A program made the position numbers and the translations under genes. The notes below the pieces were generated by a model. The model had not been told where the DNA came from. It saw only the letters and a program-made list of their open reading frames with translations, and did not search any database. This document shows, one piece after another, positions 4,300 to 44,918 of a DNA stretch of 44,918 nt; positions within the stretch are counted from its first letter, which is position 1, and the number at the start of each line of letters is the position of its first letter. Source of the stretch: a virus; the IMG/VR virus record IMGVR_UViG_3300046507_000745, positions 1 to 44,918 of that record. One strand, 5' to 3'.

Positions 4300-4728
4300 A
4301 TGGCTTTCGACAACCCTTCCAACGGCCGCACGCCGGATCCGATCGACGTCCACGTCGGCCGGCAACTTCGGATGGCGCGCAAGAACCGCGGACTCAGCCA
4401 AGAAGCCCTGGCCGCCGCGCTGGGCATCACGTTCCAGCAGGTCCAGAAGTACGAACGCGGCGACAACCGCCTCAGCGCCAGCAAGATGTACGCGGCCGCC
4501 CGCTTCCTGCAGGCCCCGATCGACCTGTTCTTCGCGGGCCTTCCCAGCCCCGCCACCGGCGACAAGACGGCGATCACCGTGCCGGCCGCCGGCTATGCTC
4601 TGATCGACCAGCGTCACGGCCGCGAACTGCATGACGCGTTCCTGCACATGCCGGATCCTGACCGGGCCCTGTTGGTCAACCTGGCTCAGCGAATGGCCGC
4701 CACCGACGCTGGCGCGGGGCAGGGCTGA
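4300..4728 (+). CDS. XRE-family transcriptional regulator
   Basis: The product has 142 residues. Residues 19-75 are a textbook XRE helix-turn-helix of the alphaproteobacterial type (LRMARKNRGLSQEALAAALG, then TFQQVQKYERGDNRLSA, then LDLFF-like IDLFF). The C-terminal half is short and probably helical (DAFLHMPDPDRALLVNLAQRM). It begins the rightward operon behind the TTGACA promoter with tandem operators, and its stop overlaps the next start (TGATG). It could bind the GCAACTAGAA sites at 2.3 kb or regulate its own operon. Which site it binds cannot be read from the sequence. Confidence 0.85.
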   Translation: MAFDNPSNGRTPDPIDVHVGRQLRMARKNRGLSQEALAAALGITFQQVQKYERGDNRLSASKMYAAARFLQAPIDLFFAGLPSPATGDKTAITVPAAGYALIDQRHGRELHDAFLHMPDPDRALLVNLAQRMAATDAGAGQG

Positions 4729-5060
4729 TGGGCACGCCCGCCTATGACGCCCAGATCGACCGCGTCGCCACGGTGCTGGCCGCGCTCGAGGCGACGCCGG
4801 TCAAGGCCCACGCCCACCCCTTGTGCGTGATCTCGCGCGACGCCGCGCCCCGGACCGTGGTCGCCGTCTATGCCGCCGACCGGCGCTTCGTCCTCGGCGC
4901 CGAGGACGTGGAACTGACGGCGCGGATCCTGACCGACGCCAAGCCCTTCACGGGGGCCGGGCTGCTGGCCGGCGGCCTGCTCGCCAACCTGGCGGTGGCC
5001 GAGTTGCTGGCCTTGCGTGCGAACGTCGTTCGCATGTGCTCGCCCATGGGACGCGGCTGA
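4728..5060 (+). CDS. Unknown small protein
   Basis: The product has 110 residues: a beta-rich first half (HPLCVISRDAAPRTVVAVYAADRRFVLG) and an Ala/Leu-rich C-terminal helix. The ATG shares a base with the TGA of the XRE gene, indicating translational coupling. The 17-bp dispersed palindrome lies near its 3' end (5018-5034) and encodes its last 15 residues in part. I do not recognise a family. Confidence 0.65.
   Translation: MGTPAYDAQIDRVATVLAALEATPVKAHAHPLCVISRDAAPRTVVAVYAADRRFVLGAEDVELTARILTDAKPFTGAGLLAGGLLANLAVAELLALRANVVRMCSPMGRG
5018..5034. repeat. Dispersed palindrome copy 1 (TGCGAACGTCGTTCGCA)
   Basis: Perfect 8-bp arms around a central T. It lies at the 3' end of the gene 4728-5060, 28 bases before the next start. 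Confidence 0.85.
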
Positions 5061-11437: not shown

Positions 11438-12301
11438 CTAGAACAGCCGGCTCTGCGGCTCCGCGAGCCCCAGCGGCACGCCCTTGCCGATCAGCAGCTC
11501 GGACGCCGGCGCGGCATGCTCGCCGCCGGCGATCGAGTACGTCGTCTGCACGGCCTCGATGTCGGCCCATGCGAACGCCGCGCGCATTTCCGGGACGTCG
11601 TTGATCGACAGCAGGAAGCGCCCCTTGATCCCGGCCAGAACCTCGGCGAGCTGGGCGAAGTCGGCGCGGGAGAAGATCTCGCGACCGTAGTCGTCCTCGG
11701 AGCCGTAGTACGGCGGGTCGAGGTAGAAGAGCGCGCCGGCGTGGTCGTACTGGGGAATGAAGTCCGCCCAGTCCAGCTGCTCGATGACGACGTCGGCCAG
11801 GCGATCGTGCAGCCGGCGCAGGCGCGGCTCCAGCCAGCGAACATCGAAGTTGTGCGGCTTGGTACGGTCGGTCCCCCAGCTGCGGCCGCGCACCTTTCCA
11901 CCGAACGCCAGGCGCTGCAGGTAGAGGAAGCGAGCCGCGCGCTCGATGTCGGTGAGATCGTAGGCGGCCATGGTCTTCAGCCGGTCGAACTCGGCCCGCA
12001 TCGCCGGCCGCCAGCGGAGCTCGCCCAGGAGCGCGTCCGGATGCGCCCGAAGGACGCGGAACAGGTTGGTGACGTCGCCGGAGATATCGTTGACGACCTC
12101 GTGGCCCGGGCGGATCGCGCGGCGGAGGAACACCCCGCCCATGCCCAGGAAGACCTCGCAGTAGGAGGTGTGCGGCGTGCTGGCCAGGACCTGGCAGATC
12201 CGCTTGGCCAGATGGCGCTTGCCGCCGATCCACGGGGCCGGAGGATCCGCCGGCGAGACGGACAGCGAGGGGAACGGCACCCCTTCAGGGTTGTGCGACA
12301 T
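11438..12301 (-). CDS. Dam-type (D12 class) DNA N6-adenine methyltransferase
   Basis: The product has 287 residues. It has the D12 N-terminal SAM motif PWIGGKRHLAKRI (24-36), CEVFLGMGGVF near 48-58, and the catalytic DPPYYGSEDDYG with DPPY at 195-198. This matches the Dam/M.MboIIA-like group, which methylate adenine in short sites such as GATC; the exact target is unknown. It is an orphan, on the opposite strand to its neighbours and convergent with the integrase, which suggests separate acquisition. Possible roles are evasion of restriction or interference with host methylation-dependent regulation. A palindrome copy lies in its 3' part. Confidence 0.88.
   Translation of the reverse strand: MSHNPEGVPFPSLSVSPADPPAPWIGGKRHLAKRICQVLASTPHTSYCEVFLGMGGVFLRRAIRPGHEVVNDISGDVTNLFRVLRAHPDALLGELRWRPAMRAEFDRLKTMAAYDLTDIERAARFLYLQRLAFGGKVRGRSWGTDRTKPHNFDVRWLEPRLRRLHDRLADVVIEQLDWADFIPQYDHAGALFYLDPPYYGSEDDYGREIFSRADFAQLAEVLAGIKGRFLLSINDVPEMRAAFAWADIEAVQTTYSIAGGEHAAPASELLIGKGVPLGLAEPQSRLF
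11570..11586. repeat. Dispersed palindrome copy 4 (degenerate, TGCGAACGCCGCGCGCA)
   Basis: Two mismatches in the right arm. It lies in the C-terminal part of the Dam-type gene. Confidence 0.5.
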
Positions 12302-12575
12302 TGAAGCTTACTCCTGTGAGCGATTAGGAGTCCGCCGCCTCCGGAGGCTGGGGCGGACGCGCCGTCGGCGATCGACGGCGTCGCGTGGCGAGGGAGTTAC
12401 TCGCCGAGAGGCGCGCTGGAACGCGCCGATCCCGCCCTGTCCGGACGAGCGGAAACCCGAATTGACCGACTCGAGCCTTGACTCTCCATCGGGTCGGAAT
12501 GAGAACATTCGCGGAACATCGGAGACATCGCCATGCCGGCACAACGCGCAGACCAGCGCGCGCGGACGCACGTCC
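12302..12575. other. Divergent control region, Dam-type gene and SOS-type operon
   Basis: No convincing gene is present. The gap separates the leftward methyltransferase from the rightward operon at 12576. It holds several GC-rich dyads, for example CGCCGTC with GACGGCG near 12360-12386. Its right end holds a TTGACT -35 (12478-12483) and the LexA box. A 16-codon ATG ORF (12533-12583) overlaps the next start and may be a leader. Confidence 0.5.
12503..12517 (+). promoter_or_regulatory. Alphaproteobacterial LexA (SOS) box
   Basis: GAACATTCGCGGAAC is an exact GAAC-N7-GAAC, the reverse complement of the GTTC-N7-GTTC box bound by LexA in alphaproteobacteria. It lies about 20 bases downstream of a TTGACT hexamer, over the expected -10, and about 60 bases before the first gene of an operon that ends in an SRAP peptidase. 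Repression by host LexA, with induction on DNA damage, is the natural inference. Confidence 0.75.
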
Positions 12576-12860
12576 GTGGCTGAGAAATTCGAGCCTGGCG
12601 TCCCGCTCGCGCACTACAGGGCGCACGGGGCTGACGTGCAGCTCCACTGCGGGAACTGCTCGCTGACGACGGTCCTGGAGCTGGAGCGCGTGATCGCTGG
12701 TCTGGCGGCGCGGGGCATGGGCGGAGACCAGACCGGCATCCGAGAGGTGGGCCCAATTCTACGCCGGCCATGTCGGCGATGTGGCGCGGCCCGCTGGGAG
12801 ACTCGCCCTGCGTTTCCCGAGATGAAGAACAAAGGCATCCCTGACCGGAGCCGGTCCTAA
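12576..12860 (+). CDS. Small Cys-pair (probable zinc-binding) protein
   Basis: The product has 94 residues and begins with GTG at 12576 (no closer ATG exists in frame and the ribosome-binding site is weak). It has two CxxC pairs, HCGNCS (Cys25, Cys28) and PCRRCG (Cys66, Cys69), consistent with one zinc ribbon, with a helix between them. It is first in the LexA-box operon, and its stop overlaps the next ATG (TAATG). Nucleic-acid binding is plausible but not shown. Confidence 0.62.
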   Translation: MAEKFEPGVPLAHYRAHGADVQLHCGNCSLTTVLELERVIAGLAARGMGGDQTGIREVGPILRRPCRRCGAARWETRPAFPEMKNKGIPDRSRS

Positions 12861-13255
12861 TGGGCAAGAACCCAGGATATCTGCCCGCCGCCGCGTACAC
12901 GGTTGGCGGCCTGATCGACGCGCAGATCTATGTGAAATGGAGCTGCCTGACGTGCAGCGCGGATGGCGTCGCCGATCTGCTGGCGATCCAGCAATCCAAG
13001 GGCCCTGGATATTCGCTTGTCGATCGCAAACTGCCTTGTCGAGAACCGGGCTGCTCCGGCCCCGTCCACTTCCTCTATTCCGGAGGGCCCGGAACGCCGA
13101 TGCGTCCGCTCCGCGACGATCGCCGCCGGGCCGACGCCGTCAGGGTGACGGCCGCCCGCCGTCAACTGGAGCAGGTACGGCAGGCGTATAACCGCGTCGC
13201 TCCGGACGCCGGCGCGCCGCCAATCCCGCCCGAGCCTTGGCGCCTGCGACCATGA
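12860..13255 (+). CDS. Cys-pair protein of the SOS-type operon
   Basis: The product has 131 residues. Cys29-x2-Cys32 (SCLTCS) and Cys60-x4-Cys65 (CREPGC) form a likely zinc site in the N-terminal half, preceded by aromatic residues and IYVKW. The C-terminal third is an Arg-rich helix (RRADAVRVTAARRQLEQVRQ) and a Pro-rich tail. The ATG overlaps the stop of the previous gene, giving translational coupling. Two consecutive Cys-pair proteins in a damage-type operon suggest DNA-binding accessory factors; the family is not recognised. Confidence 0.68.
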   Translation: MGKNPGYLPAAAYTVGGLIDAQIYVKWSCLTCSADGVADLLAIQQSKGPGYSLVDRKLPCREPGCSGPVHFLYSGGPGTPMRPLRDDRRRADAVRVTAARRQLEQVRQAYNRVAPDAGAPPIPPEPWRLRP

Positions 13256-13284
13256 CCGATAGCTTCCGGCCGGAGGAGACAGAG

Positions 13285-13680
13285 ATGACCGAGACGACCT
13301 GGGCGTGGCGCATCATCGACGCCGAGACAAATGAAACCCGCCGGTTCTACCGCGACGGCGCCGCGCTCGCCGCCGTCGGCAAGCCGCACCCGAAGGCGTT
13401 CTGGGATCGCCATCCTCTGGTCGACCGCGTCGAGAACCGTTGGGTAGGACCGGGCGACGAGATCGAGGTCAAGGTGTGGCTGAACGGCAAGGCCGCTCCG
13501 GACGCGCCCGACACGACCAGACCAGGCCGGCCGGCCGACCTGAGCTTCTCTGGCGTGTGGCGGACCGACGTCGAGTTCTGGGCCGCCCAGCCAGACGTCG
13601 AGCATGCCGAGCTGCGCCAGCACACCGGCGATCAGCCGGACGAAGACGCCTGGGCCGTCGACCTCTGGCTGAAGGCCTGA
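13285..13680 (+). CDS. Unknown protein of the SOS-type operon
   Basis: The product has 131 residues, Trp-rich and acidic, and probably mostly beta ([19 protein letters not shown], then [10 protein letters not shown], then [11 protein letters not shown]). ATG 13285 follows a strong GGAGGAG by six bases. An alternative ATG at 13252 overlaps the previous stop (ATGA) and would add 11 residues. It ends four bases before the SRAP gene. No motif indicates a function. Confidence 0.68.
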
Positions 13681-13684
13681 CCCG

Positions 13685-14446
13685 ATGTGCAATCTCTACA
13701 GCCAGCGCCGTGGGCAGGCCGAGATCCTGGCGGCCGTTAAGGCCATGGACGGGGTGGGCAACATGCCAGACCTTCCCGGGATCTTCCCGGACATGACCGC
13801 ACCGATCGTCCGCCACGTCGCGGGCGCCGAGGGCGACGAATTGGTCATGGCCCGCTGGGGACTTCCCTCCCAGTTTTGGGCGATCGAGAAAGCCGCAAAG
13901 GAACGGGCGGACAAGCTGCGCGCCAAGGGCCACGTCATCGATGACGAGCGCTGGGAACAGATGCTGAAGGAAGAGCCCGACAGCGGCACGACCAACCTGC
14001 GGCAGATGAAATACTGGACCAAGTGGCTCGGGCCCGAGCATCGCTGCCTGGTGCCCCTGACCTCGTTCGCCGAGCCCAACCAGGCCGGCGGCAAGCCGGG
14101 CGAGAACGTCTGGTTCGCTCTGGGCGAGGATCGCCCCTTGGCGTTCTTCGCCGGCGTCGAGATCCGCGACTGGACGTGCGTCCGGAAGATCAAGACCGGC
14201 TTCGAGACTTGCGATCTCTTCGCCTTCCTGACGACCGACGCGAACGAGGTCGTGAAGCCGTTTCACCCGAAGGCCAGCCCGGTCATCCTCCGGACCGCCG
14301 AAGAGCGCGACGTCTGGATGCGCGCGCCCTGGGACGAGGCGCAGGCCCTGCAACGCCCTTTGCCGGCCGACGCGCTGATCGTCGTCAGCCGAGGCATGGG
14401 CCAGAAACAGGACCCGCCCAAGGCCGCTCAGGAGGTACTGCTATGA
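13685..14446 (+). CDS. SRAP (HMCES/YedK-like) abasic-site peptidase family protein
   Basis: The product has 253 residues. It starts MCNLYS, so Cys2 becomes the N-terminal residue that in the family forms a thiazolidine crosslink with abasic sites in single-stranded DNA. Family landmarks follow: [15 protein letters not shown], a [13 protein letters not shown] block and LAFFAGVEI. The usual SFSE/WFEW acidic context reads TSFAEP, so the glutamate is kept. Length fits the prokaryotic family. It is last in a four-gene operon behind an exact LexA box, which agrees with SRAP's link to the SOS response. It would shield abasic sites in replicating phage or host DNA. Confidence 0.93.
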
Positions 14447-14495: not shown

Positions 14496-15146
14496 ATGAC
14501 CAAGCCGCTCACCGTATGGTTCTGGAACCATGAGGGCATCTTGCCTTGGTTCGAGGCGAACCAGGGCTTGTTGTCGGTGCTCGCTCTCGCGACGGCGTTC
14601 GCAGCCCTCTACTGGGAATTTCGGCAAGCAGAAAAGGCCAGGGTCGAGGCCAGGGTCGCGAAGGCCGACGCCGAGGCCCGTGACCGGCGAGCGAGCCTGA
14701 TGGCCGCGCGAAAGGAAAGGGAAGACCGGGTCAAGGCCGAGCGCAATGAGATCGGCTCGTTCTGCTTCGCGTTGGAGCAGATCTATCAGGGCATCGGCAA
14801 CTCAGCGCGGTTGGAAATCGAACGCTTGCGAAAGCTGCCTGTGGACAGGCCTCCTGAACCGAGTGGCTTCTTGACCGAAGGACGACGCGCCCAGCGCGCC
14901 ATTCAAGCCATCCTCCTGCGGCCGCCAACCGACCAAGACGCCGTGCTGGCCGCCTGTCGCGGCCTGGACGCGTTCGAGCAATGGAACAACATCGAGCTTA
15001 TCCCCGCCGGGGGCCGGGCCGATGAAATCGAGCGCAGGCGCGCAATCTTCAAGGACGCCGCGACCCAGCTCGAAGAGGCGAGAAATTGGGCCGGCGACCG
15101 CGCGTTCCAATGGCTTGAAGAGATCGCTGTCGACGCCGAGGCCTAG
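14496..15146 (+). CDS. Membrane-anchored coiled-coil protein, unknown
   Basis: The product has 216 residues. One membrane helix is predicted at about 25-42 (LLSVLALATAFAALYWEF), followed by a charged Ala/Arg/Glu coiled coil at 45-85 (AEKARVEARVAKADAEARD). The C-terminal 120 residues look globular and helical. A GGGG run eight bases before the ATG is the likely ribosome-binding site. It follows the SRAP gene by 49 bases and ends at a terminator shared with the lysis genes. It resembles cytoplasm-facing anchored proteins; the function is unknown. Confidence 0.65.
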   Translation: MTKPLTVWFWNHEGILPWFEANQGLLSVLALATAFAALYWEFRQAEKARVEARVAKADAEARDRRASLMAARKEREDRVKAERNEIGSFCFALEQIYQGIGNSARLEIERLRKLPVDRPPEPSGFLTEGRRAQRAIQAILLRPPTDQDAVLAACRGLDAFEQWNNIELIPAGGRADEIERRRAIFKDAATQLEEARNWAGDRAFQWLEEIAVDAEA

Positions 15147-15156
15147 AACGACGAAA

Positions 15157-15182
15157 GCCCCGCCAGCGGACGCCGGCGGGGC
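15157..15182. terminator. Hairpin between convergent transcripts
   Basis: GCCCCGCC (15157-15164) pairs with GGCGGGGC (15175-15182) across a 10-base loop. AAA precedes it and CTCGTT follows, so the uridine tract is short in either direction. It sits between the rightward gene ending at 15146 and the leftward Rz1-like gene ending at 15250, as expected for a bidirectional terminator. Confidence 0.6.
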
Positions 15183-15249
15183 TCGTTGTGGGCGCTCAAG
15201 CCCGGGGGGGCGAGCACCTGGTGCTGTAGGCGGCCCGGCCGACGCCGGG

Positions 15250-44686: not shown

Positions 44687-44884
44687 ACGAGCCCTCCGAT
44701 GCGAACGCCGTTCGCATGCCGGATCCGCACGTAGATGACGCTTGCGGTGCCACGCACGAACTCGACGGCGACCAGGCCCCGCTGCCAAAGCGCGATCGCT
44801 GTCTCGATGCGATCCGGATCGAACTCGACCAGCGTCCCGTCCAATAGGTCGAGGTCCAGCAGCAGCTCGTCTTCCCGGTCAACG
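44683..44884 (-). CDS. 3' part of the small gene split by the contig ends (unknown)
   Basis: Reading leftward, a frame that begins with codons for VDREDELLLDLDLLDG and ends RHANGVRIGGLV at TGA 44683-44685 gives about 67 residues, acidic then beta-like (AVEFVRGTASVIYVRIRH). It overlaps the primase start by four bases. The start codon is at 130 in the left copy, across the poly-C tract. The product is not recognised. Palindrome copy 11 lies in it. Confidence in a real gene rests on the overlaps at both ends and the intact frame. Confidence 0.6.
44700..44716. repeat. Dispersed palindrome copy 11 (TGCGAACGCCGTTCGCA)
   Basis: Perfect arms around a central C. It lies in the 3' end of the small split gene and encodes ANGVRI, 14 bases before the primase start. 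Confidence 0.9.
44773..44884. repeat. Terminal direct repeat, right copy
   Basis: Identical to 1-112. It shows that the contig overlaps itself and that the unit length is about 44,772 bases. Confidence 0.9.
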
Positions 44885-44918
44885 CCCCCCCCCCCCCCCC
44901 CGCCGGGCCCCCCCGCGC
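44885..44918. other. Poly-C and low-complexity right end
   Basis: Seventeen C followed by GCCGGG, more C and GCGC. The final bases match nothing at the left end and look like assembly noise at a homopolymer. Confidence 0.6.

Follow-up and report, generated by a model that had tools for sequence, protein, structure and literature searches.

A candidate LexA-controlled operon ending in an SRAP gene, carried by a temperate phage of a probable Caulobacteraceae host

Four closely spaced genes (P0001–P0004, Table 1), headed by a GAAC-N7-GAAC box and ending in an SRAP-domain gene, are found in the IMG/VR record IMGVR_UViG_3300046507_000745, the whole of which (positions 1–44,918; 44,918 bp) was analysed and is referred to below as the window. 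The window has a G+C content of 68% and a direct terminal repeat (nt 1–147 / 44772–44918), at least the first 100 bases of which are exact at nt 44772; because the terminal bases recur there, the assembly, about 44.8 kb long, is probably circular and complete. The phage is temperate, and a ParB-like protein, terminase, portal and primase are encoded in addition to the integrase, Dam-type methyltransferase and repressor-like protein listed in Table 1. Much of the window is akin to a provirus, G006 (methyltransferases 78–80% identical, integrase 39%, and many more genes), and since the same operon as in G006 is held by a Caulobacteraceae genome, G115, the host is probably a member of this family.

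Table 1. Features of the SRAP operon and of its surroundings in the window
Feature	Position (nt)	Strand	Remarks
Repressor-like HTH protein	4300–4728		
Integrase	9631–11250		Matches integrase and DNA-invertase families
Dam-type methyltransferase	11438–12301	-	
-35 hexamer TTGACT	12478–12483	+	Present upstream of the box
LexA box GAACA-TTCGCG-GAACAT	12503–12519	+	Overlaps the expected -10 region
16-codon leader ORF with GGAG ribosome site	12533–12583	+	Predicted; overlaps the P0001 start
P0001, 94 aa, two CxxC, predicted zinc ribbon type 1	12576–12860	+	GTG start
P0002, 131 aa, Cys-pair protein, predicted zinc ribbon type 2, long C-terminal helix	12860–13255	+	
P0003, about 131 aa, unknown fold	13285–13680	+	ORF opens further upstream, at 13252 or 13237
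P0004, SRAP-domain protein, Cys2	13685–14446	+	Pfam SRAP 3.7e-15
Possible fifth operon gene, 216 aa	14496–15146	+	Starts 49 bp past SRAP
G+C-rich hairpin, possible terminator, short U-run	about 15157–15183	+	z = -4.5 for 15140–15200

Two further observations concern the regulatory sequences of the phage. Over 116 bp, part of the repressor-like gene (nt 4408–4523) is about 84% identical in DNA sequence to a gene for a regulator in Caulobacter phages whose genomes measure 223 kb. Seven near-identical 19-bp palindromes of the type RTGCGAACG-N-CGTTCGCA are dispersed over the window (at nt 5017, 16350, 21754, 30056, 35329, 39960 and 44699; 0.06 expected for the 15-base half pattern). They may serve as operators for the phage repressor or as sites for the ParB-like protein, and none was found in the related prophage G006 or in G007.

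The ORF layout bears out the initial annotation of an operon in which two tightly coupled Cys-pair genes precede a third gene and one for an SRAP protein with Cys2. The first two genes overlap at TAATG, P0002 runs into the P0003 ORF at ATGA, and P0003 ends 4 bp before SRAP. The start of P0003 is probably at nt 13285 (GGAGGAGACAGAGATG), behind GGAGGAGACAGAG, rather than at nt 13252, because its orthologues begin there. The possible fifth gene has no family match and no counterpart in G006 or G007, and is not conserved with the cassette. Pfam, PHROGs, NCBIfam and PADLOC gave no assignment for P0001, P0002 or P0003, and none of the four proteins P0001–P0004 matched an anti-phage defence model in PADLOC.

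The exact GAAC-N7-GAAC box over a TTGACT promoter that had been described for this locus is present (GAACATTCGCGGAAC, nt 12503–12517), and it is the sole exact copy in the window. The 8-base core was rejected as evidence by itself, as 1.3 matches are expected per window by chance. The experimentally defined LexA consensus of Caulobacter, (T/A)TGTTC-N6-TGTTC, is quoted in PMC13384398, and the GTTC-N7-GTTC core of the alphaproteobacterial LexA box is also given in PMC12700426. All 11 defined bases of this consensus (GAACA-N6-GAACAW), which is that of Caulobacter, the phage host being probably one of the Caulobacteraceae, are matched perfectly at nt 12503–12519, with 0.01 such matches expected per window. 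As in genes of the alphaproteobacterial LexA regulon, the extended box is exact, lies over a promoter and is kept in relatives. A promoter scanner found no sigma-70-like site because the -10 is not TATAAT-like. The sequence TTGACTCT occurs at constant spacing to the box in three relatives (L111, L121, L128), and TTGACTC in three others (G044, G143, G212). Four relatives with otherwise different surroundings show almost no change in TTGACTCT, in its spacing from the box, in ATGAGAACATT or in GCGGAAC, and keep the promoter footprint TTGACTCT...ATGAGAACATTnGCGGAAC. A leader ORF of equal length is found in L111, short leaders lie behind the box in other relatives too, and in G212, where the first gene is a different one, the leader seems to be joined to it in frame.

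Conservation of the box was assessed at 188 loci, collected by scanning viral contigs and GTDB genomes with SRAP as the seed, and from phage records. Among the 95 SRAP clusters formed at 90% SRAP identity and having at least 2 kb of upstream sequence, the N7 box occurs within 2 kb upstream in 65, and the exact box is absent from the scanned 2 kb in the other 30. The same scan with spacings of 5, 6, 8 and 9 gave 11, 4, 4 and 3 clusters, respectively, and downstream of SRAP the N7 box was found in 8 of 87. Four named phage records have the box upstream of SRAP. For comparison, N7 boxes are present at 30 of 30 lexA and 23 of 30 recA loci of Caulobacteraceae. It had been stated beforehand that loss of the box from close relatives keeping the operon would speak against LexA control; the relatives do not show this pattern, and control by the host LexA, as proposed in the initial annotation, appears well supported by the conserved box, the spacing-specific enrichment and the match to lexA and recA promoters. 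Binding of LexA and induction of the operon by DNA damage would be expected from this arrangement. Of 42 proviruses attributed to isolate genomes on the strength of their contig names, 26 have their SRAP gene no more than 10% away from an end (8.4 expected), which is the behaviour of exchangeable accessory cargo.

P0001 carries the Cys pairs C25xxC28 and C66xxC69, and P0002 the pairs C29xxC32 and C60x4C65. An orthologue of P0001 occurs in L111, G115 and G044, the Cys residues of its family (A6) being near-invariant, and in the P0002 family (A5) C29, C60 and C65 are invariant and C32 is lost in some members. The AlphaFold2 models (pLDDT 83.5 for P0001 and 86.4 for P0002) both have a helix, a strand with the first Cys pair, a strand, a helix, the second Cys pair and a strand. 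The two proteins fit a pattern of two conserved Cys pairs flanked by beta strands, some relatives of P0002 being without the second Cys, and in a profile comparison their first halves align (E = 2.7e-4, probability 42%). Neither has a Pfam match above the cut-off or, in a fold search, a PDB match at E <= 0.001; the weak fold matches include HypA, MCM and sirtuin/USP chains, and several are zinc-binding domains. That P0001 and P0002 are zinc ribbons, as they are called here, is predicted from their Cys pattern and from the models.

Small genes with two Cys pairs are concentrated between box and SRAP, where they make up 36 of 112 genes (32%) vs 17 of 641 (2.7%) elsewhere on the same contigs, the genes of relatives having been called with a simple scoring script and not a standard annotator (Fisher p = 3e-20, with related genes counted as independent; 2.9 expected after composition shuffling). 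Single-sequence viral scans found no match for P0001 or P0003 and one partial match for P0002, and a search of phage proteins with P0002 gave no matches; profiles and whole genomes were used because these scans yielded almost nothing. As a test of the box independent of SRAP, 348 Caulobacteraceae genomes were searched with the P0002 profile and 299 with the P0001 profile, SRAP and box being ignored. An N7 box was found not more than 600 bp upstream in 44 of the 60 Cys-pair loci examined (other spacings, 0–2) and in 34 of 48 clusters at 70% identity. SRAP, in the roughly 3 kb fetched around each locus, accompanies only a minority, and the wider neighbourhoods, inspected by eye, include both prophage-like and ordinary chromosomal settings. 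Because most of the box-headed loci are without SRAP, the predicted zinc-ribbon families appear to be linked to LexA boxes independently of SRAP. For a bradyrhizobial zinc-ribbon type (A7) the link is weaker, with a box within 1 kb in 12 of 30 loci and about half near SRAP.

P0003 behaves differently from the Cys-pair proteins. A profile search of 249 Caulobacteraceae genomes gave five good relatives (E < 1e-24), all with a box 0.4–0.8 kb upstream; in four of the five SRAP follows within about 12 bp (twice as a distant SRAP subfamily), and the fifth is cut by the contig end. Eight weaker matches (E 1e-3 to 1e-8), without box and without SRAP, may not be true relatives. P0003 looks like a dedicated companion of SRAP, judging from this gene order. 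The suggestion that all three small proteins could be new partners of SRAP thus appears to hold for P0003 but not for the Cys-pair proteins, which lie mostly behind a box without SRAP and are better described as SOS-box-linked, at times sharing an operon with SRAP.

In several P0003-type operons the head (TTGACTC, box, GGAG site, start codon and short leader) is kept and the genes that follow differ, a pattern in which promoter, box and leader appear fixed and the middle genes swapped. The cassette is common to G006, a phage related overall, and to G007, which has almost nothing else in common with the window and yet carries the box, P0002, P0003 and SRAP. Two more small-protein families were seen repeatedly downstream of LexA boxes; the first has a GSRSRPW-like motif, the second the motif DLTSADGRAGIGxLLxEIER (loci L262, L271, L037, L112; L265, L266, L269).

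P0004 matches Pfam SRAP (PF02586) with 56.5 bits against a gathering cut-off of 27.1 (E = 3.7e-15). Its N-terminus is MCNLYS, and Cys2, behind Met1, is invariant together with N104, R106, E130 and H194 across 14 diverse aligned relatives (A1 alignment). N104, E130 and H194 align with the TNxR, FYEW and IHHRMP segments of HMCES, so that, like Escherichia coli YedK and human HMCES, P0004 keeps Cys2 and the Asn, Glu and His positions of the crosslinking mechanism, which are described for YedK in PMC9436759. The predicted active site is intact, and a role in abasic-site crosslinking is suggested by these residues and by the chemistry of the SRAP family. Unlike YedK and HMCES, P0004 is of an alphaproteobacterial subfamily whose long form contains an additional insert, as in the closest solved structure, Agrobacterium tumefaciens AGR_pAT_140 (PDB 2AEG; E = 2.8e-69 over residues 1–237), which was deposited as a hypothetical protein. 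A defence-system reading of SRAP was considered and is unsupported by the analysis. The same applies to counter-defence against Brig1; deletion of yedK in E. coli left Brig1 immunity unaffected (PMC11078745).

SOS-linked SRAP operons with zinc-ribbon neighbours have been known since 2013, when SRAP (DUF159) was named for its SOS neighbourhoods by Aravind et al. (PMC3765255). These authors described SOS-associated SRAP operons that also contain LexA, ImuAB-DnaE2, DinB, Ku/ligase and two domains predicted to be Zn ribbons, and they noted neighbours resembling zinc ribbons where Ku is present, as well as SRAP in temperate phages. The operon of the window is similar in that its SRAP stands in an SOS context with predicted zinc-ribbon proteins beside it. 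It differs in having a host-type alphaproteobacterial LexA box at its head, other small genes and exchangeable middle genes; no polymerase, Ku or LexA gene was seen in it. A further difference is that zinc ribbons of the P0001 and P0002 types occur mostly without SRAP, the comparison with the 2013 domains being by description only. Neither stand-alone zinc-ribbon families linked to LexA boxes nor P0003 as a constant neighbour of SRAP were found in the open-licence literature searched. In Sinorhizobium phage phi2LM21 (MF614627) and Agrobacterium phage Rivra (PV764937), as in the window, a GAAC-N7-GAAC box heads a series of small genes that leads up to a related SRAP, but the small genes are different ones. 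The paper on phi2LM21 (PMC5537653) does not mention LexA. In phi2LM21 (L030), annotated ATP-dependent DNA ligase genes lie on both sides of the box-headed SRAP region, and recall the SRAP-Ku-ligase neighbourhoods.

Taken together, we consider it likely that the cassette is a lysogeny-borne, LexA-controlled SOS cassette for abasic-site protection by SRAP. In the lysogen, host LexA would sit on GAACA-N6-GAACAT over the -10 region and keep the operon off; upon DNA damage, activated RecA would lead to self-cleavage of LexA, and coupled translation of a single transcript would yield both zinc-ribbon proteins, P0003 and SRAP. SRAP would then cap abasic sites in single-stranded DNA through Cys2, as a thiazolidine crosslink, and protect the damaged prophage, the host chromosome or replicating phage DNA. 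P0003 would work directly with SRAP, and the zinc ribbons may be general SOS effectors or adaptors. Such cassettes would be assembled in a modular way from a fixed head of promoter, box and leader, interchangeable small genes, and SRAP as the common tail. SRAP could also have another role than the capping of abasic sites.

A rival reading shares LexA control but gives the operon a different main task, the steering of the phage or host cell cycle during the SOS response (e.g. antirepression, timing of induction or delay of division); the zinc ribbons would be its effectors, and SRAP would be an accessory or sense the damage. Aravind et al. (PMC3765255) suggested that phage SRAP senses damage and acts as a switch for lysis, and the many zinc-ribbon homologues behind a LexA box without SRAP imply that these proteins are not simply SRAP helpers. 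This reading nevertheless appears unlikely, as the operon lies beyond the integrase and away from the repressor region, SRAP sits near provirus ends in the manner of accessory cargo, and the chromosomal copies in non-phage settings, noted by eye, argue against a purely phage role.

That the site is bound by a phage repressor and not by host LexA would agree with the phage having an HTH regulator of its own, and with the palindromes with GAACG/CGTTC half-sites elsewhere in the window; these are, however, a different motif and are missing from G006, whereas the spacing and flanks of the box match Caulobacteraceae lexA and recA promoters, are kept in otherwise unrelated phages, and the same box heads chromosomal zinc-ribbon genes. 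Binding by a phage repressor is accordingly very improbable. Even less credit can be given to a chance match in a GC-rich phage with ordinary accessory genes behind it: the number of 8-base cores expected per window would allow it, but the expectation for the extended consensus and the spacing-specific enrichment in independent relatives do not, and it is contradicted by the counts for SRAP clusters, Cys-pair loci and the consensus alike.

Beyond the preferred LexA-controlled SRAP cassette, we lean slightly towards the view that small zinc-ribbon proteins with two Cys pairs make up an as yet unnamed class of SOS effectors, widespread in Alphaproteobacteria and placed under LexA boxes in chromosomes and prophages, and that the phage cassette is a modular platform joining them to SRAP via the dedicated companion P0003. 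Many damage-induced genes in alphaproteobacterial SOS regulons are still of unknown function, and families found recurrently and directly behind LexA boxes, for which sequence models and neighbouring genes are available, are testable candidates in a genetically tractable group (Caulobacter). To our knowledge, the bacterial partners of SRAP/HMCES are largely unknown, and the constant P0003–SRAP pair offers a route to asking what works with these proteins. The cassette shows phages plugging cargo into the host damage switch through a fixed promoter head and swappable genes, and the recurrence of switch and gene types in many prophages and chromosomes points to little-known families of the damage response.

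Two phages with recorded cyanobacterial hosts, PP438429 (L027) and MZ436628, look like alphaproteobacterial phages. The former has SRAP with LexA boxes of the alphaproteobacterial type, the latter a similar Dam methylase gene, and the host assignment may deserve a check.
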